Shown here: piece after piece, positions 2,852 through 20,020 of the stretch
How the letters are laid out: every line of letters starts with the position of its first letter
Position numbering within the stretch: the first letter of the stretch is position 1
Virus record (IMG/VR): IMGVR_UViG_3300028610_001249
Location: 1 to 22,620 of that record
Direction: 5' to 3' (one strand)
Source: a virus
Length of the DNA stretch: 22,620 nucleotides
Made by a program: the position numbers and the translations under genes
Notes under the pieces: model-generated
Databases searched by the model: none
Told to the model about the DNA's origin: nothing
The model's input: only the letters and a program-made list of their open reading frames with translations

Positions 2852-2937
2852 TGGCGGCTGGATCGGTAGTGACAAAAGACGTGCCCGACGGCAAGATCGT
2901 CATGGGTGTACCAGCAAAGGAGGTTGGCAATGCGTAA
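2824..2937 (+). pseudogene. 3' remnant of a hexapeptide-repeat (left-handed beta helix) acyltransferase
   Basis: In the frame ending with TAA 2935-2937 the sequence reads GITIGEDSVVAAGSVVTKDV followed by PDGKIVMGVPAKEVG. This matches the C-terminal end of LbetaH acetyltransferases (maltose/galactoside/NeuD-like type), which typically finish VVAAGSVVTKDVP…GVPAK. About 38 codons are recognisable. Upstream in the same frame (from ATG 2776) the residues no longer resemble the family, so the nucleoside/CoA-binding coils are missing. No ribosome site precedes ATG 2776. It is best read as a fragment left by recombination. Its final codons (GCAAAGGAGGTT) supply the strong ribosome site of the next gene. 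Confidence 0.8.
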
Positions 2938-3592
2938 ACTCAAGACACGAAAATTAGTATCTATTAGCCGTTGGGCTAAAATTAGCTTCTCAACTTGTTT
3001 TCTCCTCGTCGTCAGTGCCTTGGCGGGGATTTTACCTCATGGGATGAATGTGCCAGTGGGGGCGTGTGAGAAGGATACGGCTGACGCGATTGCGACGATT
3101 GAAATAATGGAGTTTGCTGATGTTCTGGGTGTAGCATCTCCTTTTCACGAATGGTTGGAAGGATGGGGTCTTGGCGATACACTTCTCCCGCTTCACGACA
3201 CCGCCCGCGAGTACATGACAGGGGATACGGTGTTGACTTGTCCCGATTGCTGGACGTTGCAGGTTTGGGATACGTTGTATCCTCATAACGTTTCTTGGCC
3301 GAGTGCTGAGCGGTGGTGTGTTTTAAGGTCGGGTGGCGTGACGTGGATGGTTCAGCCTAAAACAATTAGCATCGACACCACTTGGCACCCGAAAGTGCAG
3401 GTCTGGTTGACGCCAGAGGAGATGAGGACCCTGATGGCGCTGTTGCACCCCTCACCGTTCTCAATGGGTCTTGTAATACCCGTTAATGTGTTGGATGATG
3501 TGTCTCACGGAATTAGCGCAGAAGAATTAGATAGTATATCGGGTTCGGCTGGTATTTGGATAAAAGACAGCACCGTTGATATGTTGGAGTAA
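2930..3592 (+). CDS. Exported or membrane-anchored unknown protein
   Basis: This 220-residue protein starts at ATG 2930, with a near-perfect AAGGAGGT 7 nt upstream. The N-terminus is strongly basic (MRKLKTRKLVSISRWAK), followed by a hydrophobic segment at about 17-36 (ISFSTCFLLVVSALAGILPH). This is a signal anchor or a signal peptide with a long n-region. The rest is soluble, acidic and Trp/Cys-containing (CPDCW at about 103-107, C129), fitting disulfides outside the cytoplasm. The C-terminal part reads like a compact alpha/beta domain (VWLTPEEMRTLMALL). I do not recognise the family. An envelope-acting accessory protein, such as one for superinfection exclusion, is conceivable but is inference. 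The gene converges on the leftward cluster with a single base between stops. Confidence 0.75.
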   Translation: MRKLKTRKLVSISRWAKISFSTCFLLVVSALAGILPHGMNVPVGACEKDTADAIATIEIMEFADVLGVASPFHEWLEGWGLGDTLLPLHDTAREYMTGDTVLTCPDCWTLQVWDTLYPHNVSWPSAERWCVLRSGGVTWMVQPKTISIDTTWHPKVQVWLTPEEMRTLMALLHPSPFSMGLVIPVNVLDDVSHGISAEELDSISGSAGIWIKDSTVDMLE

Positions 3593-7903: not shown

Positions 7904-8650
7904 GTGGCGCGGGGGAAGAAAAAAAGTAATGTCGAGAAGGCGCTGACTACAGTGAAAATAGAAGAGCGCGGGCTGTCTAAATATACGGAACCGGGCCGAA
8001 CTTGGCAAGTTGTGGCTCGCCGGGTGCGAAAGCGCAATTCGATCATCTACAAAGAATGGCTTGATGCGGAGGATAAGGAAACCGCCATCGACCTGCTCCA
8101 GGAGAAGTGGGGGTTCAAGCGTCGGGGGGATGTCCTCCGCATCATTGAAAAAATGAAGACCGAAGGTGCGGTTATCCCGGCAATGGCCGCAGAAACGAAG
8201 GTGCTACGTCGCGTCAAGACCGAGGAAGTGCTTCGAGACTATGATGCACAGCGGGCGGAACTCGACCTTCAGCTTCTCAAACTTCGCAAGAGGCGGGCGA
8301 TGGGTGAAAAGACAATTAAAGTTGAAATAGTCGAGACCGTCAGCGACAAGAATGGGGCCAAAGACAAGACCGGGGAGGGGGCCCCAACTAAGAAGGTGCT
8401 CTACGAGACCAAAACCAAACTGGTGTTTATAGATGCTGAGATTAGGCACTTGGAGGCCGAACGCGCCAAGAGTCACACACCGGAGGCCGCCGCACTCGCA
8501 GATTATACCGTTAAGGAACGTGATCGCAGCGAGAACATTACCGACATAGCGGCCCGCGCTAATGCGGTATTTGTATCAGAGTATCAACGACAGTCACAGA
8601 TGAATCGGGACAACGAAATACCCGCCAACGCGGAGGTTGTGGACGGATAA
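7904..8650 (+). CDS. Probable terminase small subunit
   Basis: The 248-residue protein starts at GTG 7904; no good ribosome site is visible, so coupling to the previous gene is likely. It opens with a basic tail (MARGKKKSNVEKALTTVK), then a helical, DNA-binding-like region (VVARRVRKRNSIIYKEWLDA … AIDLLQEKWGFKRRGDVLRI), and a long charged coiled coil (about 103-200: EEVLRDYDAQRAELDLQLLKL and IRHLEAERAK). Small terminases recognise the packaging site and oligomerise through helices, and their gene nearly always precedes the large subunit, as here with a 14-nt overlap. The assignment rests on position and overall build, not a specific motif. Confidence 0.55.
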   Translation: MARGKKKSNVEKALTTVKIEERGLSKYTEPGRTWQVVARRVRKRNSIIYKEWLDAEDKETAIDLLQEKWGFKRRGDVLRIIEKMKTEGAVIPAMAAETKVLRRVKTEEVLRDYDAQRAELDLQLLKLRKRRAMGEKTIKVEIVETVSDKNGAKDKTGEGAPTKKVLYETKTKLVFIDAEIRHLEAERAKSHTPEAAALADYTVKERDRSENITDIAARANAVFVSEYQRQSQMNRDNEIPANAEVVDG

Positions 8651-10229
8651 TACTGGATTGACAGGGAGAATAACCATAAATCTAACCATCGAAAACGAAC
8701 ATTGGCACCTGTTTGACCCAGCGAACAAAGACGCTCAGGCTAATCGTCTGTTCGTCGCCAAAGAATCGTTCTATTGGTTCTGTCGAATCTACTTGTCGCA
8801 CTTTTTCACCATCCCGATTGCGGCCTTTCAGCGCGAGCTATTCGATCTGTGCAAGGAGGAGTGGTTATTGATCGTCATGCCGCGTGGATACGGCAAATCT
8901 TATGTATGGTCAATCGCGTATCCGCTGTGGGTGATTCTGAACAATCCCTACAATTTCAAACTGAGGTGGAAACAAGAAGAAATCGTGCTGATCTCCAACA
9001 CCTTGGCCCTGGCGGAAAAGTGGATAAAAATCCAAAAAAAGGAACTTTGTTTCAATGAGCGTATTGTCGGGGATTATCTGCCAACAGAGGGCGATACGTG
9101 GCGTGTGGATGAATATGAGATTAACGTTCGCGGGAGAATGCACGGGAAAATAATTGCCAAGGGTTCGGGGACACAGATTCGTGGAGACCACCCCTCGGAG
9201 GTGTTGATTGATGATCTGGAAGACCGCTTAGAGGCGAAATCCGAGGGTCCCCGTCAGAATATGAGCGAGTATTTCTATCAAGACCTGCTTGGCGTTTTGC
9301 GTGAGGAGGGCACCGTTAAGGCCCGCCTAAAAATAGTCGGCACCTTCGTTCATCCGTTGGCGTTGTTGCCAGAATTGTACTCTCAAGACTGGTGGACGAA
9401 GCGGAAATACGCCGTTGTCAAGCCAGACGGGACCCCATTATGGCCAGAATATAAGAATGCGGAGCAATTAAAAGAACTTAGGAGGAGAGTTAAGGAACCG
9501 GCGTGGTGGTCAGAGTATATGAGTGCACCCATTGTGTCGGAGGACCCGACTTTTCGGCGTGAATGGTTTAAGGCATACACGGAAGTGGAACCGGGCGTGG
9601 TGCGGGGGGTTTCCGGAAGGAAGCACCGCGTTCGGGACCTATATAAAGTTTGCAAGATCGATCCGGCCATATCTCAGCGAGACGCGGGTGACTATTCGGC
9701 CATTCTTGTTTACGGTGCTTGCTTTGACGACCCGGAAGAGATATTTCTCCTTGATGCCTGTCGGGGTCACTGGACACTTTCACGACAAATTAGCGAAATG
9801 CTGGACGTTCACGAGAAATATCCCGGCACATTGCAGATCATCGAAACCGTTGCCTATCAGAAGGCGTTGTACTACGAGTTCAAAGAGCGATGCGACCACG
9901 ACGCCCTGAATATACGGGTTATTGAAGAAGTCCCGGATAAAGACAAGGGCCGCCGCGCCCATGCCGTTCAACCACTGTTTCAGGCGAACAAGGTACACTT
10001 CAATCACGAACTGCCAGGCCACGGGATTGTGATGGACGAACTGGCAATGTTTGACTATGAGGTTCGCAAGCACGGGCGGGATGATTATGTGGATTGTACG
10101 TCGGGATGTCTGGCGCATTTGGACCTGTGGTTGCGTCGTCGGCGTAAGGGTCGTGACAGGGGGGAGAGTAAACCAATTCTGATGTGGAAAACGAATAGTC
10201 CGGTTTCTGTGGGGGTGGGGGATGCCTGA
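8637..10229 (+). CDS. terL: Terminase large subunit (packaging ATPase and nuclease)
   Basis: The 530-residue protein carries the packaging motor motifs. There is a Walker A variant MPRGYGKS (81-88), a Walker B VLIDDLE (189-195) in the context SGTQIRGDHPSEVLIDDLED, and a coupling-motif-like KIVGTFVH (232-239). The C-terminal RNase-H-type nuclease has acidic residues at D342 (CKIDPAIS), E403 (IIETVAY) and D483/D486 (DDYVD). The protein cuts and pumps DNA into the prohead through the portal. The start is unclear: TTG 8637 is the longest choice but GGAGG abuts it, while a better-spaced AGGGAG (8664-8669) is followed only by ATA in frame (8676). The end overlaps the portal start by 8 nt. Confidence 0.95.
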   Translation: MWTDNTGLTGRITINLTIENEHWHLFDPANKDAQANRLFVAKESFYWFCRIYLSHFFTIPIAAFQRELFDLCKEEWLLIVMPRGYGKSYVWSIAYPLWVILNNPYNFKLRWKQEEIVLISNTLALAEKWIKIQKKELCFNERIVGDYLPTEGDTWRVDEYEINVRGRMHGKIIAKGSGTQIRGDHPSEVLIDDLEDRLEAKSEGPRQNMSEYFYQDLLGVLREEGTVKARLKIVGTFVHPLALLPELYSQDWWTKRKYAVVKPDGTPLWPEYKNAEQLKELRRRVKEPAWWSEYMSAPIVSEDPTFRREWFKAYTEVEPGVVRGVSGRKHRVRDLYKVCKIDPAISQRDAGDYSAILVYGACFDDPEEIFLLDACRGHWTLSRQISEMLDVHEKYPGTLQIIETVAYQKALYYEFKERCDHDALNIRVIEEVPDKDKGRRAHAVQPLFQANKVHFNHELPGHGIVMDELAMFDYEVRKHGRDDYVDCTSGCLAHLDLWLRRRRKGRDRGESKPILMWKTNSPVSVGVGDA

Positions 10230-12063
10230 AAACAAGACATTAGACTTTGATGCTACCGGGGAAGAGAATACGCGCAAGTTCATGCGGGCGTTTTTCGAGA
10301 CGGCCCGTGAAGCGCAGGGTCCCAAACACAACGAGTTCAAGCGCATGTACCGCATGTATAAACTCCAGAAAGATATGTCGAACCGCGATCCCAACCGGTC
10401 AAATATCTTTATTCCTAAATGGTTCTCGATGGTTGAGACCGTTACCCCCGCGATGGTTGATGCGCTTATTGGCCTGCGTCCCTATATCCCAATGGAGATT
10501 GAGGGTGATCCCTCCGGTGATATCGGCGCGGCCCTCACGGACGTTACGGACGCCTTCCTGGAAGATGGCGACTTTGATTGGCATACCATGCGGCTCATAA
10601 AGTATGTGGTATCCTTTGGTACTGGGTTTATCGAGGGGCGTCCGGATTGGGTTAAGCGAACCATTCAAGAAGAGCGCCCGATTTTCTCTACAGATTACTA
10701 TGGTCGATCAGTGCAAGTCGGAATGGACTATGAGGACATGGAGAGGTATTTCCTTCGTCTTATCCTTCGGGCTTATGCACCGTGGGAAATCTACAAGGAC
10801 CCGTTGGCGAAGTCGCTGGAACCCCATGAGTGTCGGGGTATTATTAAGTTCCGGGGCCTGACCTCCAAGCGACAACTCAAGAAAATGGCGGAGATGGGCC
10901 AACTCCCGGACTTTGACATTGAGAAACTACAGTCGGACATGGAGGGGCTGAAGGACGACGACTGGGGACGGCAATTAGCCGAAAGTTGTGGTGTCCCCAC
11001 ACCAAGGTACGATGATGACATGGGGGTATGGTTATCGTTTGAAAGCGCAGATCGCTACATTGATATGTGGAACTTCACCACGATTCTGCGGGACGGTCCC
11101 AATCCGTATGAACACGGCGAAACCAATCTGACGCGGGTAGTCAACGTCGATGATCCGAATCCGTATTCAGAGTGGTTCGGCATTGGTGACGGTCGTCCGG
11201 TTGAGCAACTGTGTTATGCGCTCAACGATAACTGGGATCAAACTTTCGACAATCACCACATGCAGAATCAGGGGATTATTTACTACGACACCGACGCCAT
11301 GAATGTAGATCAGCTTGTGATGATTGCAGGTAATCGGGTGCCAGTATCACCCCAACCCAATCAACGAATAGAAGACGCTGTTCACGAGCGCAAAACACCC
11401 GGTTTGAATCGGGCTCACTACATGATTCCCCAGACGCTTAACACCCTGATCGACCGTACAATGGGACAATTTAATTCACAGCGCGGTGAAGAATCGGGCG
11501 GCGATCAGACCGCCCGAGAGGCGTTAATGCTGAAGAGTGCAGGGGATAGTCGCACCAAGTTGAAAATCAAGATGCTGGAAAAGATGGGATTGAAACGGTT
11601 CGGGGAGAAGGCCGCTGCCATCATTGACCAGTTTGCGGCCCCCGATGATATAGTTGCGAAGATCGGTGTTGAGCGGGCGATACTATTGCCGAGCGTGAAT
11701 CCGGCCAGTCTCGGCTCCGGACACAAGATGGTGTTCAAGGGGTCTGACCGGTTAGCCAATTTGCAGATTCAGCGACAAGACGCTAAGGACATCTATCAAC
11801 TTACGGCTGGTAATCCTTCAATCAATCAAGAATGGCTTGGCAACTGGTTGCTTGAAAAGTTTGATGTGCCAGAGTATGAGCGTCGCAAGGCGGTTCGCAA
11901 TGATGAACAGGCAATGCAGGTACAGGCCGCACTCGCTGAGATGGGTGGTGGTGGTGGCGCTGAGTCAACCAGGGGCATATCGAATGGTCGCACGATGGGC
12001 GGTGCCATTGGATACAGTCCAACCGGCCGAGATCAGAACGAAAAACTGGGGGCCGCTATTTGA
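10222..12063 (+). CDS. Portal protein, podovirus-type
   Basis: The 613-residue product follows the large terminase with an 8-nt overlap, as portals do. It has an N-terminal wing region (WFSMVETVTPAMVDALIGLRPYI), a long middle, and a C-terminal part typical of podoviral portals: TMGQFNSQRGEESGGDQTAREALMLKSAG at about 412-440, followed by a long helix (RTKLKIKMLEKMGLKRFGEKAAAIIDQF) that would line the channel. It ends in a Gly-rich, flexible tail (EMGGGGGAE). The portal is the dodecameric ring through which DNA enters and leaves. The length is in the range of P22/SU10-type portals. Confidence 0.88.
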   Translation: MPENKTLDFDATGEENTRKFMRAFFETAREAQGPKHNEFKRMYRMYKLQKDMSNRDPNRSNIFIPKWFSMVETVTPAMVDALIGLRPYIPMEIEGDPSGDIGAALTDVTDAFLEDGDFDWHTMRLIKYVVSFGTGFIEGRPDWVKRTIQEERPIFSTDYYGRSVQVGMDYEDMERYFLRLILRAYAPWEIYKDPLAKSLEPHECRGIIKFRGLTSKRQLKKMAEMGQLPDFDIEKLQSDMEGLKDDDWGRQLAESCGVPTPRYDDDMGVWLSFESADRYIDMWNFTTILRDGPNPYEHGETNLTRVVNVDDPNPYSEWFGIGDGRPVEQLCYALNDNWDQTFDNHHMQNQGIIYYDTDAMNVDQLVMIAGNRVPVSPQPNQRIEDAVHERKTPGLNRAHYMIPQTLNTLIDRTMGQFNSQRGEESGGDQTAREALMLKSAGDSRTKLKIKMLEKMGLKRFGEKAAAIIDQFAAPDDIVAKIGVERAILLPSVNPASLGSGHKMVFKGSDRLANLQIQRQDAKDIYQLTAGNPSINQEWLGNWLLEKFDVPEYERRKAVRNDEQAMQVQAALAEMGGGGGAESTRGISNGRTMGGAIGYSPTGRDQNEKLGAAI

Positions 12064-13280: not shown

Positions 13281-14447
13281 ATGGCTACAACCATTCGGTC
13301 AATGGGCCTCAGTAGCAATATCTATGCTACTAACGAGAAGCCCGTTGATATGTTCTCGAAAATGTTCGAGAATTATCCCGGGTTGACGCCGCTGACCTCG
13401 ATTCTAACGAAGTTAAGTTCGGCAGAGACCTCTAATTCGCGGGTTGATTGGACGGAACAGGAGAAGATTCCTACTTCTGTCGTGTCGACCGCAGCGGCTA
13501 CAGCTGGTGCCGCCACCCTAACTATTGCGGATTTCGCATACCTTCGTAACCACGACTTCCTGTTTAACGCCAGGACACGCGAGATGGTCAAGGTACAGGA
13601 CGCGGCGCTTGATGCGTCCGTTAGCGTTATCCGTGGTTGGGGTGCAACGACCGGTGCGGCCGTACTGTCCGGTGATGTCTGGGAAATTGGCAATTCGTCC
13701 TATCACGAGGGATATGACGAGGCCAATCCGCGCTCACCGGTAAACGTCAACTTCTATAACTATACAAATGAAGTTGTGCAGTTTGTCCAAACCTCTAATC
13801 GCGTTATGAACGAGAAGACCTTCTTCGCGGGCAAGGGTGGTAAGAGGCTGGAGAATCAACAGAGCATGTTCAGGATGTTCCGTGAGAAGTTCGAGAAAGA
13901 CGTGCTTTTCTCGTATCGCTCCGACACTGTTTCAACTCAATCCGGTTACACGTCCAATTATATCAAAACGATGGGCGGTCTGGTTGAGAAGTTAGACGGT
14001 GGCACCAACTACTTTGATGTTGGTGGTATTCTAACCGAAAGCGGGTTCGATAATTGGCTGGTGAAGATTTACACTGGCATGCCGGACTCCACTAAGCTGA
14101 CGGCGTTTATCGCGCCCGAAGTCTACCAGATTCTTAATAACCTTGTCAAGCCGCTGATTCGCGTGTCTCCCAACGTCAAGAAGTATGGGATGCAAATCAA
14201 TCAGTATCAAGGCGCTGTGAATCTGGACCTGATTCCGCACCCGCTTTTGAGTGGGCCGGAATTGGGGGGCTGGATGTTCTTGCTTGACCTCGATCACATC
14301 AAGCTGATCTACCAGCAACGTCCCCAATTGGAACTGGATACCTATGTTAAGAGGGCTGGTTTCGTTGAGGATAAATACTCGGCGATGGTTACACTACTCG
14401 CCGCTAACGAAAAACGTCACGGCATGGCCGTGGGAATCACGGGTTAA
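13281..14447 (+). CDS. Major capsid protein (HK97-fold, SU10/DUF5309-like)
   Basis: The 388-residue product follows the scaffold and has one of the best ribosome sites in the window (aagggggag, about 9 nt upstream), fitting high expression. Its core resembles the SU10-type major head protein family: a beta-hinge-like segment (VSTAAATAGAATLTIADFAY), a DEANPRSPVNVNFYNYTNEV block, an E-loop-like run and a helical spine (KGGKRLENQQSMFRMFREKFEKDVL). The C-terminus has P-domain-like strands (GGWMFLLDLDHIKLIYQQRP, VKRAGFVEDKYSAMVTLLAAN). No N-terminal prodomain is obvious. The family call is from memory of the pattern, not from a search. Confidence 0.85.
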   Translation: MATTIRSMGLSSNIYATNEKPVDMFSKMFENYPGLTPLTSILTKLSSAETSNSRVDWTEQEKIPTSVVSTAAATAGAATLTIADFAYLRNHDFLFNARTREMVKVQDAALDASVSVIRGWGATTGAAVLSGDVWEIGNSSYHEGYDEANPRSPVNVNFYNYTNEVVQFVQTSNRVMNEKTFFAGKGGKRLENQQSMFRMFREKFEKDVLFSYRSDTVSTQSGYTSNYIKTMGGLVEKLDGGTNYFDVGGILTESGFDNWLVKIYTGMPDSTKLTAFIAPEVYQILNNLVKPLIRVSPNVKKYGMQINQYQGAVNLDLIPHPLLSGPELGGWMFLLDLDHIKLIYQQRPQLELDTYVKRAGFVEDKYSAMVTLLAANEKRHGMAVGITG

Positions 14448-15538: not shown

Positions 15539-15847
15539 ATGTTTACCGAGGTGATTTTTTACGCACCCGAGAACGCAGAAATGATGGTCGGGGCCGAGAG
15601 TATTCGACCGGAAAAACGAAATCCGGGGTCGGGTACGTTAATCAAACCATCCGGACTGATTAGATTTCGTGGTGGCCTCTATCGCACCTCTGATCCCAAA
15701 GAGATTAAGCTACTAAGAAACACCAACTCTTTTACCATTGGTAAGATTCGGGAGATCACGGAAGACGAGGCGGCTATTCTGGCTGGTGTTCGTACTGGGG
15801 CCGGAACAACCGAAATGGCTACATCTGAGGCGGGTGGGGCCAAGTGA
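15539..15847 (+). CDS. 102-residue small virion-region protein
   Basis: ATG 15539 was chosen because GGAG (15529-15532) lies 6 nt upstream; ATG 15527 is the alternative. The product is MFTEVIFYAPENAEMMVGAE followed by beta-rich sequence (TLIKPSGLIRFRGGLYRTSD) and a flexible Thr/Gly-rich tail. Short proteins at this position, between decoration and adaptor genes, often are head or connector accessories, but no family is recognised. The stop overlaps the next start (GTGA, 15844-15847). Confidence 0.65.
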   Translation: MFTEVIFYAPENAEMMVGAESIRPEKRNPGSGTLIKPSGLIRFRGGLYRTSDPKEIKLLRNTNSFTIGKIREITEDEAAILAGVRTGAGTTEMATSEAGGAK

Positions 15848-16497
15848 CCGCAAGTGATGTCACGAAGATTATCGCGGCTCTTTCGGAGGCAAGGTCTATT
15901 GGTGACGAGGCATATTGGGCCGAGGTGGTTCCACTTATAGTTCCGCATGTAGCTAACGAGATCGCCAACGCCTATGATTTTTCTTTTACGATGAGTGAAT
16001 ACTCGTCGGTCGTTACCGTGGCGAATCAATCAGACTATACGTTATCAGGCACCAATTTTAATCTGCGCGACATTATTAGCATCAGATACGGAACGGACAA
16101 GAGGCCCTTGACGCGATTGCGGACACTCGACGCTGATGATGCGGTGTATGATCGGACAATCACCGAGGTCCAGTATTGGCATGAGTTTGATACTGATGCC
16201 AGCGGCTATCCGGTGGTCACATTGATTGACACCCCCGCCGTAGCGGGAGAAATCCTGTATGTGCGATATCGTCTTAAAGATATTCCGCTCGGGTTATTTC
16301 CTGATGGGTTTGGGTATGTGTTGGTGCGGGGTGTTATGGCGTTTTTGAGGCCTGATAAGACGGACGCCTACGAGAGAGCCCTGAGGGGTATGATCGAACG
16401 ATACCGGTCGGGTGGTAAGGAGGCGCAAATCGCGCCCATTGACCCCCACCTGGCCCTGGGTAATCAGCAAATTGCGGACGTATACGGGAGTGGTTAA
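15844..16497 (+). CDS. Probable portal/tail adaptor (connector) protein
   Basis: The 217-residue product starts at GTG overlapping the previous stop. Its plan is that of podoviral adaptors (P22 gp4/T7 gp11-like): an N-terminal helical part (VTKIIAALSEARSIGD … VPHVANEIANAYDF), a central beta domain (SVVTVANQSDYTLS, DIISIRYGTDKRPLTRL, EILYVRYRLKDIPL) and a C-terminal helical bundle (YERALRGMIERYRSGGKEAQ). Such proteins bind the portal and receive the tail nozzle. The assignment is by architecture and position; no exact family is claimed. Confidence 0.65.
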   Translation: MTASDVTKIIAALSEARSIGDEAYWAEVVPLIVPHVANEIANAYDFSFTMSEYSSVVTVANQSDYTLSGTNFNLRDIISIRYGTDKRPLTRLRTLDADDAVYDRTITEVQYWHEFDTDASGYPVVTLIDTPAVAGEILYVRYRLKDIPLGLFPDGFGYVLVRGVMAFLRPDKTDAYERALRGMIERYRSGGKEAQIAPIDPHLALGNQQIADVYGSG

Positions 16498-17205
16498 ATG
16501 AAACGCTGGAAGCTGGTTGTTGCGATCCTGCTGTTACCGTTGGTGGTTTGTGGCAATAGCTATCTCGATAGTCGAACGGACTACTACCCGGCTGCACGGG
16601 TGAAACTGGGGTTGAATGTTGCTTCGTCGGGCGGGCTGGACGATACCACGGCGAGCCGATTGTTCAACGAGGCGGCTACGCTTATTTTGCCGATCAACCG
16701 GGGTATAAAGCGGATCACTGAGATTGTGATGACCTACCAAGAGAACACTTACGGGCTGGACACAACGCTTGTGGGTATTGAGGCTGTTTGGACGGATAGT
16801 GCCTACCGCATGAAGTCATTGAAACATCTACCTATATCGCTGTGGAACGATATGGTCCACAAGACCGCTGCGGGTACGGACAACTTCTTGCTGTCACGCC
16901 CGAGCTTTTATGACTACACCGACAGCCAACTGATTGTGGGTCCGGTACATACCGGTAATCGGTATGACACACTAAAGATTATGGGCTGGCACCGGCTGGC
17001 AGATGTTGATACGATGACCACACCGACGCTGGTGCCCGAGAAATATCGACACGCCATTCTATATCATATGGTTTGGAACCAAGCCAGAGCGCGACAGTAT
17101 CCGCAGGCGTTTGTGGAAAGCGTCTTTCTTGAATTGAATGGGGAACTGGCTAAGTGGAGAAAGACGATGACGCAAGGGGGGGCAATTGTCCCGACTGGTC
17201 AGTAG
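16498..17205 (+). CDS. Second adaptor-like tail protein with an N-terminal signal peptide
   Basis: The 235-residue product begins immediately after the previous TAA. The mature part repeats the plan of its neighbour: helical lead (ASRLFNEAATLILP), beta centre (ITEIVMTYQENTYGLDTTLV; YRMKSLKHLPISLW) and C-terminal helices (ILYHMVWNQARARQYPQAFV), so it is probably an adaptor or tail-tube protein. Unusually, residues 1-20 form a textbook signal peptide: basic n-region (MKRWK), hydrophobic core (LVVAILLLPLVV), and a V-C-G cleavage-type site before NSYLDS (possible lipid attachment at Cys18, though the lipobox is poor). It overlaps the next gene by 20 nt. Confidence 0.7.
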   Translation: MKRWKLVVAILLLPLVVCGNSYLDSRTDYYPAARVKLGLNVASSGGLDDTTASRLFNEAATLILPINRGIKRITEIVMTYQENTYGLDTTLVGIEAVWTDSAYRMKSLKHLPISLWNDMVHKTAAGTDNFLLSRPSFYDYTDSQLIVGPVHTGNRYDTLKIMGWHRLADVDTMTTPTLVPEKYRHAILYHMVWNQARARQYPQAFVESVFLELNGELAKWRKTMTQGGAIVPTGQ

Positions 17206-20020
17206 CTTCCTATTGGTGCTGTTGGTTGCCTCCGGCGTACGGGCCGAGGAGCGCCTGCACCGGATCATGCAATTTGGAACACTGAACACCATTGCTGGCG
17301 ACTTCGCCATGAAACCCGGAGAGAGTCGCGTAGCTCACAACATCGACTGGGGTCGCAATGTCGGGTCGATCACCAAGCGGCTCGGTTATGACTCACTAAC
17401 GACCATGACGGACATTGATTCCCTTGTGGCATTATATGGTGCGTATTATTCGGATGGTACTCAGCAACTAATTATAGTATCCGATTCGGCGGACGTTGGT
17501 TACGGCTCGGTCTATGCCTCCCCCAAGGGCGAAGCGCGATTCCCCGAAGAAACAAACAAGTGGGTATTCAACATGACGGGGAGCGTGGAAGACAACTACG
17601 AATATCTTGACTCTTTCTACATCAATAGTGTGTGGTATGAGGTAAGTTATACAACTCCACCCGTTGCCGCAACTATAGGTGACATTATTTTTGGCATTGC
17701 GACGGCCATCAACAGCGGCGATACGACGGGTATATATTTGACCGCTCAAGGCTATGGGTTTTATCCTTACCCGTGGGTAGTTACGGAGGATACCGAAGAG
17801 TCTGGCATTCAGGCGCGTGGCGACACCTCTATGACGCTGGACACAATACCGGTTACGCGAACAAAGATTTGGGATTACTTCAGCGTTCTCAACAAACCAT
17901 CTTTCGCCATGTACGGCGATGTCGTATTTGGCGTCAACGGTTCACATAAGGGAATCGCTTACAATGGTGATGTCGCTCGGTCGTGGCCCCTGAACGCACC
18001 GGGGGAACCAACGATTGTGCCGCTCACCACGGCGGGTCCACCAGACGGTGAATATCGGTATACGTTTACTTATCTTCGCGGGCTTGAGGCCGGAGATAGT
18101 TCGTATGGCACGGCGGGCACTGTAACCATGCCGGTCCGAGTTACCAACGGACAGATATTGCTTAGGGATTTTCAATGGGTCGGGGCCGACACGATTAACG
18201 CTTCTCCCGACAGTGTGGGGGTCGTGATTTATCGTACGAGGGCGAATCCGGGTAGGCTGGAACAACGCGACTCGGCGTTTCTAATTGATACAGTTTGGGG
18301 CACAAGTGCTTCCAATTTGGCAACACTCAACCTAATTGATAGTACGGGCGATGACGATTTGGGTGCGGGTATATCTATCTGGGTGGATGATTACATCGGG
18401 CGAGACACCAGCAACGGTTATGACCATAGGTATGGTGCGCCGACATATTTGGATTGCGATTCAGTCTTGGCGTATACCAAGAGTGGCACGAACACGGACA
18501 GCGCCTACAACGCTGGTATCTATCACGGCATCCCCGATCAGGTGGATACTCTGGGGGTGCAGTACATTGTTACATTCATGGATACCGTGTTGGGCGTCGA
18601 GTCTAACGCAAGCCCACCGCTGTCAATCCAACAAGCCCACGATGCAGTTAAGGCGTGGAGTCAGCGGATCGGCCTCCCAACCCCCGTAGAGGGTGATACG
18701 GGCATTGTTCGCAATCTGTATCGAGCGCATATTTTACAGATCACAAGGGACAGTGTCTTTAATGTTATGGACTCCATTAGAGAGGCCCGCACCGGCCCTA
18801 ATATCGTATTTTACAAAAGTGGCCCCGGTACGGATAATGCCGGATTGCCCTTGGGTTGGGAGTGGCGATTGGCCGTTGACACTGTTATGGTATCGACATT
18901 TTACCTGGTTGCCCAAGTTTCCGCTGACAGCACGGCTTACACTGACAGTACCCGGTGGGACTCCTTGCAACTACAGCCGATTTTTGCTCAGTCTACGCCA
19001 CCACCATTTATGTCACAGATATTCAGCTATAACGGTCGCATGTTCGGTATCGCTGGAAGTCGGCTATATATGTCACGGCTGGACTCCGCCGCTGCTTGGG
19101 GTGCGTTAGACTACATAGCCCTTGGTGAGGGTGACGGCGATCAGAACATGGCCGCCTATCCTTCAAGGGCGGGGATCACCGTGTTGAAAAACCGTTCGCG
19201 CTACACCGTTCAGCAAATTGATGCCGCCCCCGGTTGGGGAGAAGAACATATCAACGGTTTTATTGGCTGTATCGCGTCGCGTTCGGTAGTGCACAGTCCG
19301 ATGGGGGTATATTATTTGTCATCTGAGGGTATCAGGCGGACAACCGACGGCATAACGCTTGATCGAACCTACGAAGATGTGCTGGTGTCTGCACCGCTCA
19401 AGAACTTTACCGATCTTCCCATAACCACATTGGTGAATACCGAGGGTTTCTACTTCGACCAAAAGGCGATGTTCTGCATCGGTGACACGACTTATGTGTA
19501 CGACGAACGAGCGGGGGCGTGGTCAACGTGGAACATGACATTCGCCGGGGCGACGCTGTATGGCACTGAGGATGAACTGAACTTCTTACCCGGCGACTCC
19601 ATGTATTTCATAAGAGCGGGCGACTCGTTGTTGTACCGCTATGGGGCGGGGAGCCAAACCGACAAGGGTTCCCAAATACGCATGCGGTGGCGGTCTGGTC
19701 CGATTGGGCTTGATAACAACTTGGCCCTGACCTCCATAAACAGCGTTACCCTGATAACCAACGGCGATGACGCTACGGACCAAATCTATGGATATATATA
19801 CGATGAAAGCGATGTCGAGATAGATGTCAGCCCCACGATTCACAACTATGTCATATTTGACAGTCTGACGGTACGATATCGCGCGATGGGGATGCTACCA
19901 CATTTCGGACTGTACCATTCTTTTCATATGACAAATGGTGTGCAGTTGGTCAACTCGGATGCGGTGGTGGATGGGATAGTAATTAGATATAGTGTGGGCG
20001 GAGTGCCCTTAATAGAGTAG
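17186..20020 (+). CDS. Large nozzle-like tail protein with an N-terminal signal peptide
   Basis: The 944-residue product looks like a podoviral nozzle or tail-tube B protein. After the N-terminus it has FGTLNTIAGDFAMKPGESRV … VGSITKRLGYDSL, equivalent to the GGLNT…R(K)RPGY opening of such proteins. Then come long beta-propeller-like repeats with FSYNGRMFGIAGSRLYMSRL, CIASRSVVHSPMGVYYLSSE followed by GIRRT, YVYDERAGAWSTW and LLYRYG. The start is TTG 17186 behind AAGGGGGG, overlapping the previous gene. Residues 1-19 (MSRLVSSFLLVLLVASGVRA, then EE) are a clear Sec signal peptide with an A-type cleavage site. If ATG 17267 were used instead, the leader would be absent and 61 bases would be non-coding. 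Confidence 0.8.
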   Translation: MSRLVSSFLLVLLVASGVRAEERLHRIMQFGTLNTIAGDFAMKPGESRVAHNIDWGRNVGSITKRLGYDSLTTMTDIDSLVALYGAYYSDGTQQLIIVSDSADVGYGSVYASPKGEARFPEETNKWVFNMTGSVEDNYEYLDSFYINSVWYEVSYTTPPVAATIGDIIFGIATAINSGDTTGIYLTAQGYGFYPYPWVVTEDTEESGIQARGDTSMTLDTIPVTRTKIWDYFSVLNKPSFAMYGDVVFGVNGSHKGIAYNGDVARSWPLNAPGEPTIVPLTTAGPPDGEYRYTFTYLRGLEAGDSSYGTAGTVTMPVRVTNGQILLRDFQWVGADTINASPDSVGVVIYRTRANPGRLEQRDSAFLIDTVWGTSASNLATLNLIDSTGDDDLGAGISIWVDDYIGRDTSNGYDHRYGAPTYLDCDSVLAYTKSGTNTDSAYNAGIYHGIPDQVDTLGVQYIVTFMDTVLGVESNASPPLSIQQAHDAVKAWSQRIGLPTPVEGDTGIVRNLYRAHILQITRDSVFNVMDSIREARTGPNIVFYKSGPGTDNAGLPLGWEWRLAVDTVMVSTFYLVAQVSADSTAYTDSTRWDSLQLQPIFAQSTPPPFMSQIFSYNGRMFGIAGSRLYMSRLDSAAAWGALDYIALGEGDGDQNMAAYPSRAGITVLKNRSRYTVQQIDAAPGWGEEHINGFIGCIASRSVVHSPMGVYYLSSEGIRRTTDGITLDRTYEDVLVSAPLKNFTDLPITTLVNTEGFYFDQKAMFCIGDTTYVYDERAGAWSTWNMTFAGATLYGTEDELNFLPGDSMYFIRAGDSLLYRYGAGSQTDKGSQIRMRWRSGPIGLDNNLALTSINSVTLITNGDDATDQIYGYIYDESDVEIDVSPTIHNYVIFDSLTVRYRAMGMLPHFGLYHSFHMTNGVQLVNSDAVVDGIVIRYSVGGVPLIE

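Follow-up and report, generated by a model that had tools for sequence, protein, structure and literature searches.

Predicted Sec-type leaders and O-glycosylation sequons on a nozzle protein and its neighbour suggest a possible split route of tail assembly in a short-tailed phage

The IMG/VR virus record IMGVR_UViG_3300028610_001249 is a linear contig of 22,620 bases, and this whole stretch of DNA, referred to here as the window, is a partial record, that is, one fragment represented by a single sequence. From position 8637, genes for the terminase large subunit, the portal protein, a small protein, a scaffold-like protein and an SU10-type major capsid protein follow one another (Table 1). 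Behind the capsid gene lie several small genes, two consecutive genes in the adaptor position (15844-16497 and 16498-17205), a nozzle gene (17186-20020) and more probable virion genes. By this set of terminase, portal, capsid, adaptor-like and nozzle genes, the contig belongs to a short-tailed phage with dsDNA and a capsid protein of the SU10 type. The SU10_portal Pfam match of the portal protein lies below threshold (22.6 bits, cut-off 30), and the terminase gene has a poor Shine-Dalgarno (SD) site at its listed TTG, its true start being uncertain. Between 6206 and 21529, strong G-rich SD sites, often AAGGGGG, precede most structural genes. Elsewhere in the window, 1662-2183 encodes an HNH endonuclease, probably of the homing type, that matches AP2 weakly, and the reverse-strand gene 4868-5515 matches phrog_947 (DNA polymerase processivity factor) and phrog_3007 and is possibly a sliding clamp. 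Relatives were sought with the nozzle, portal, TerL and capsid proteins and their alignments, by scans of viral and genome contigs and by tblastn against phages and plasmids. No close relative of the record was found in viral contigs, genome contigs, phages or plasmids, only distant ones, and the TerL relatives had no further structural gene in common with it.

Table 1. Positions of the features discussed, numbered from the first base of the window
Feature	Positions	Strand	Remarks
Protein with long n-region and hydrophobic N-terminal segment	2906-3592	+	8/8 D[ST] pairs are sequons
Terminase large subunit	8637-10229	+	phrog_38, E 1.6e-71
Portal protein	10222-12063	+	phrog_332, E 4.6e-12
Major capsid protein, SU10 type	13281-14447	+	PF17236, 45.4 bits, cut-off 24.1
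First adaptor-like protein	15844-16497	+	No leader, no sequon; weak hhalign match to the adaptor of L025, E 0.002
Sec-type leader, second adaptor-position protein	16498-16554	+	Residues 1-19, predicted cut VCG/N
Mature second adaptor-position protein (predicted)	16555-17205	+	5 sequons, 0.9 expected
G7 run, SD of the nozzle TTG start, within the end of the preceding gene	17176-17182	+	
Sec-type leader, nozzle	17186-17245	+	Residues 1-20, predicted cut VRA/EE
Mature nozzle protein (predicted)	17246-20020	+	phrog_511, hhalign; conserved family core at about residues 625-877

The product of 16498-17205 begins, from ATG 16498, with MKRWKLVVAILLLPLVVCGN, and the nozzle begins, from TTG 17186, with MSRLVSSFLLVLLVASGVRA. 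A leader rule was used that asks for K/R in the n-region, an 11-residue core with a mean Kyte-Doolittle hydropathy of at least 2.2, and small residues at -3 and -1. It picked up 6 of the 8 E. coli signal peptides used as known examples and, among 24 genes, was passed by these two only, the other 22 failing; none of 4167 internal fragments of the window's proteins passed. Random open leaders of 45 codons with matched base composition passed in 318 of 200,000 cases (0.16%), and chance was rejected as the source of the leaders.

Both starts carry good SD sites, which supports translation from them. ATG 16498 is preceded by CGGGAGUGG (duplex -7.9 kcal), while TTG 17186 has CAAGGGGGG at a spacing of 4 (-11.0 kcal), of the AAGGGG(G) type also found before the capsid, scaffold and 14460 genes. 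The nozzle frame opens just 5 codons ahead of this TTG. Starts past the leader are weak except ATG 17267, which has an AGGAG (-8.1 kcal) 15 nt upstream, a poor spacing. The nozzle frame is +1 to that of 16498-17205, and slippage or a sequencing error at the G7 run could fuse both genes; a one-base error there leaves the leader at 16498 and the sequons described below untouched. The rule and the SD sites together thus bear out the sequence-only reading that Sec-type signals open both adjacent proteins. That reading had also raised a lipid-anchored virion. The lipobox is defined as [LVI][ASTVI][GAS]C (PMC11893012), and the Val that precedes Cys18 in the second adaptor-position protein falls outside it; since the nozzle leader contains no Cys, the lipoprotein interpretation was discarded.

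The nozzle, of 944 residues, matches phrog_511 over residues 454-841 (E 1.5e-9) and its relatives by hhalign (E 2e-10); its N-terminal half is unmatched. It stands behind the adaptor in the head-tail module and is the only nozzle in view. A platform and beta-propeller fold was looked for in a structure model, which was of low confidence (pLDDT 32.7). A tail-like look had been attributed to both mature parts; the family matches bear it out for the nozzle. The product of 16498-17205 had no adaptor family match and no detectable homologue in profile, hhalign and relative searches. Gene order, length and the succession of helices and strands in a low-confidence model (pLDDT 35.6) make it a putative adaptor. 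The two adaptor-like genes stand in tandem ahead of the nozzle (15844-17205), the second with a leader, while the first, as previously claimed, indeed has none.

Fourteen nozzle homologues were collected, three through a degenerate search on the conserved domain (L025-L027) and the others from phage records (L013-L015 and L028-L035). A hydrophobic leader was present in none of the 14 and in none of 8 genes preceding them; the best 11-residue hydropathy in homologues and preceding genes was at most 1.6, compared with 3.34 and 2.98 for the two leaders. The conserved start of L013, L026 and L027 aligns directly behind the leader of the present nozzle. Homologues that start past the hydrophobic segment had been anticipated as an outcome that would speak against the signals, and they do start there, but they are distant and have no sequon excess as a group, so they show the leaders to be additions in the present lineage rather than spurious.

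A second and independent signal comes from the composition of the same proteins. The tripeptide D(S/T)(A/I/L/V/M/T) is the O-glycosylation sequon of a periplasmic system of Bacteroidota, for which export is needed (PMC8550257, PMC12871550). The same work ties the sequon to export, in that a glycoprotein deprived of its signal peptide remains cytoplasmic and unglycosylated (PMC8550257, PMC12871550). Counted as D-[ST]-[AILVMT], with the expectation taken from the composition of each protein, 25 sequons were found in the nozzle against 4.8 expected (z 9.7), 5 against 0.9 in the second adaptor-position protein (z 4.5), and 8 against 0.9 (z 7.6) in the product of 2906-3592, which has too long an n-region to pass the strict leader rule and for which no homologue was found. 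The three proteins whose N-terminus is hydrophobic thus have 5-8 times the expected number; when 30 genes are ranked by N-terminal hydrophobicity, the top three are also the three most enriched in sequons. The other 17 tabulated proteins of the contig showed no sequon excess, save two sites in the small 12060 gene.

The excess of the D[ST] dipeptide was spotted before testing; the controls on the third residue, the homologues and Bacteroidota phages came later and used the published set. The enrichment ahead of [ST][AILVMT] concerns Asp in each of the three proteins, and of their 46 D[ST] pairs, 38 have A, I, L, V, M or T as the next residue (p 6e-9). The 38 sites are encoded by 38 different nine-mers, and a DNA repeat was accordingly rejected as their source. 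As a group, the 14 homologous nozzles have no sequon excess, though L015 shows 7 against 2.4; the fold by itself therefore does not require sequons, and a fold-driven bias was judged unlikely. The co-occurrence of sequons and leaders strengthens the case for export. The unexpected export of tail proteins proposed in the sequence-only reading gains in this way, since leaders are joined by predicted O-glycosylation sequons at about 5 times expectation in the mature parts.

Phages of known Bacteroidota hosts served as controls. In six stretches of such phages, leaderless proteins contained 214 sequons against 200 expected. Enrichment was found in spanin-like proteins of crAss001 (L039 25066-25695; 4 against 0.3), B40-8 (L038 15801-16406; 5 against 0.8) and Cellulophaga phi14:2, where it is gp87 (L042 19230-19808; 4 against 0.6). 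These proteins have an N-terminal membrane segment, and their bulk should lie on the periplasmic side; phage spanins may thus be glycosylated by the host. The proteins that mass spectrometry assigns to the phi14:2 virion, including a nozzle-sized one, showed no sequon enrichment. As spanin-like proteins are enriched, and leaderless and virion proteins are not, the sequon behaves as an indicator that a phage protein is exposed to the periplasm.

A leader by itself would not have decided the case, as two groups of capsid proteins illustrate, on neither of which such leader-like segments are read as signs of export. The major capsid protein of the Winogradskyella phage Peternella (L036 22360-23367) has a Sec-type leader, MKNFFKCVLAILIIAVVSTVGHAFG, and no sequon excess, and capsid proteins of Porphyromonas phages have predicted signal peptides that are thought to be cut off by prohead proteases (PMC10367356). 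Sec-type leaders were also seen on gp45 and gp46 of the Pelagibacter phage HTVC023P (L007 27823-28479 and 28513-29898), encoded behind the capsid gene; as a parallel these were rejected, since they have leaders yet show no sequon excess and no link to a nozzle.

With regard to the host, the sequons speak for Bacteroidota, whereas SD use speaks against the class Bacteroidia. SD strength in the present phage averages -8.6 kcal, with 87% of sites strong, in comparison with means of -0.8 to -2.6 and 0-12% strong sites in the phages of class Bacteroidia tested. Because of this difference the host may belong to a related class or phylum.

The usual view of tailed phages is that every part of the virion is put together in the cytoplasm. 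In the scheme proposed for the present phage, the nozzle and the product of the preceding gene would be made with Sec leaders and sent to the periplasm, where signal peptidase would trim both and the host would probably O-glycosylate them at D(S/T)(A/I/L/V/M/T). Heads carrying the portal and the leaderless first adaptor would mature in the cytoplasm, and lysis, by opening the envelope, would let the tail pieces waiting in the periplasm join them. P22 tailspikes, and the heads and tails of T4, offer a precedent for the last step, as heads and tail parts can join spontaneously in vitro. From the leaders and sequons we infer that export and cleavage of both proteins are quite probable, and that their O-glycosylation, given a host that possesses the system, is likely, a somewhat better than even prospect. 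Since no other nozzle is in view and this one sits in its usual place, the exported parts may also join virions at lysis, at slightly short of even odds. Taken from end to end, the scheme of Sec export, trimming, probable O-glycosylation and joining to heads at lysis is an evenly balanced proposition. The most far-reaching form of this scheme, namely a split assembly in which cytoplasmic heads would meet a Sec-exported, O-glycosylated nozzle and second adaptor at lysis and so acquire host-glycosylated tails, is tentative, with a rough probability of 0.42. Among the papers found, none describes Sec-exported or periplasm-glycosylated tail proteins, and we know of no tailed phage with such an export route.

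The earlier reading also raised assembly at the membrane, blocking of receptors and an ejection intermediate, which sequence does not tell apart. Of the alternatives to split assembly the strongest, though unlikely, is that the exported proteins are non-virion derivatives of tail proteins with a role beyond the inner membrane, such as masking receptors against superinfection, while the virion nozzle is encoded beyond the end of the contig. Leaders and sequons would then be accounted for with no late joining step, and the contig is a fragment; however, the sole nozzle in view occupies its canonical place in the head-tail module, and several probable virion genes follow it. It is distinctly improbable that the nozzle exists in two forms, a long exported one from TTG 17186 and a short cytoplasmic one, from ATG 17267, that enters virions. 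The AGGAG upstream of ATG 17267, a codon that sits where the leaderless homologues begin, would fit such a short form, but the spacing of this site is poor, the second adaptor-position protein has no such alternative start, and the sequons would still require an exported form to matter. Similarly improbable is a tail built at the inner membrane on leaders that remain as uncut anchors, with the bulk of the proteins in the periplasm. A positive n-region and a core of 12-14 residues could persist as a signal anchor, yet VRA/EE is a good signal peptidase site and an uncut hydrophobic leader on every virion subunit would be odd.

Split assembly also has to be set against the idea that the leader-like segments are assembly segments cut by a phage protease, the sequon excess being a coincidence of composition or fold. 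Cleavage of this kind has been proposed for the capsid proteins of Porphyromonas phages (PMC10367356), and the capsid protein of Peternella has a leader without sequons, but in the present phage the sequon excess tracks the leaders, is Asp-specific and is absent from the homologous nozzles as a group, which makes this explanation very unlikely. Least probable is an artefact, with the true nozzle start at ATG 17267 or a gene fusion masked by a one-base error at 17176-17182, for despite the TTG start, the G7 homopolymer and the AGGAG before ATG 17267, the TTG has a well-spaced SD of -11.0 kcal like those of other genes of the phage, random open leaders seldom pass the rule, and both errors would leave the leader at 16498 and the sequons in place.

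If split assembly proves true, head-tail joining would take place at or after lysis and virions would bear host sugars, which would matter for adsorption, stability and recognition. Counting sequons, which singles out the spanin-like proteins of three cultured phages, could moreover serve as a general computational test for periplasm-exposed phage proteins in hosts with this glycosylation system.

Several known systems share parts of this picture. With the capsid proteins of Bacteroidota phages that have signal peptides, Peternella included (PMC10367356 for the others), the present tail proteins share a hydrophobic leader on a structural protein; those are, however, head proteins, and the capsid protein of Peternella, having no sequon excess, is unlike the proteins described here. 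The nozzle and tail stabilisation proteins of PHROG 511, 578, 3287 and 5107 (SU10 gp17, P22 gp10, T7 gp12) share the C-terminal domain and the place behind adaptor genes with the present nozzle, but they have neither a leader nor an overall sequon excess, and the present nozzle has both. The general O-glycosylation of Bacteroidota shares with the present proteins the same tripeptide, a similar preference at the third residue and the tie to a leader, whereas the papers found contain no case of a virion protein, and the SD use of the present phage is unlike that of class Bacteroidia. Finally, pVIII and pIII of M13, coat and adsorption proteins of a filamentous phage, are synthesised with leaders and pass across or into the inner membrane, as is proposed here for the two tail-gene products; filamentous virions, in contrast, are extruded through the membrane, whereas the present phage is tailed and carries terminase, portal and capsid genes.
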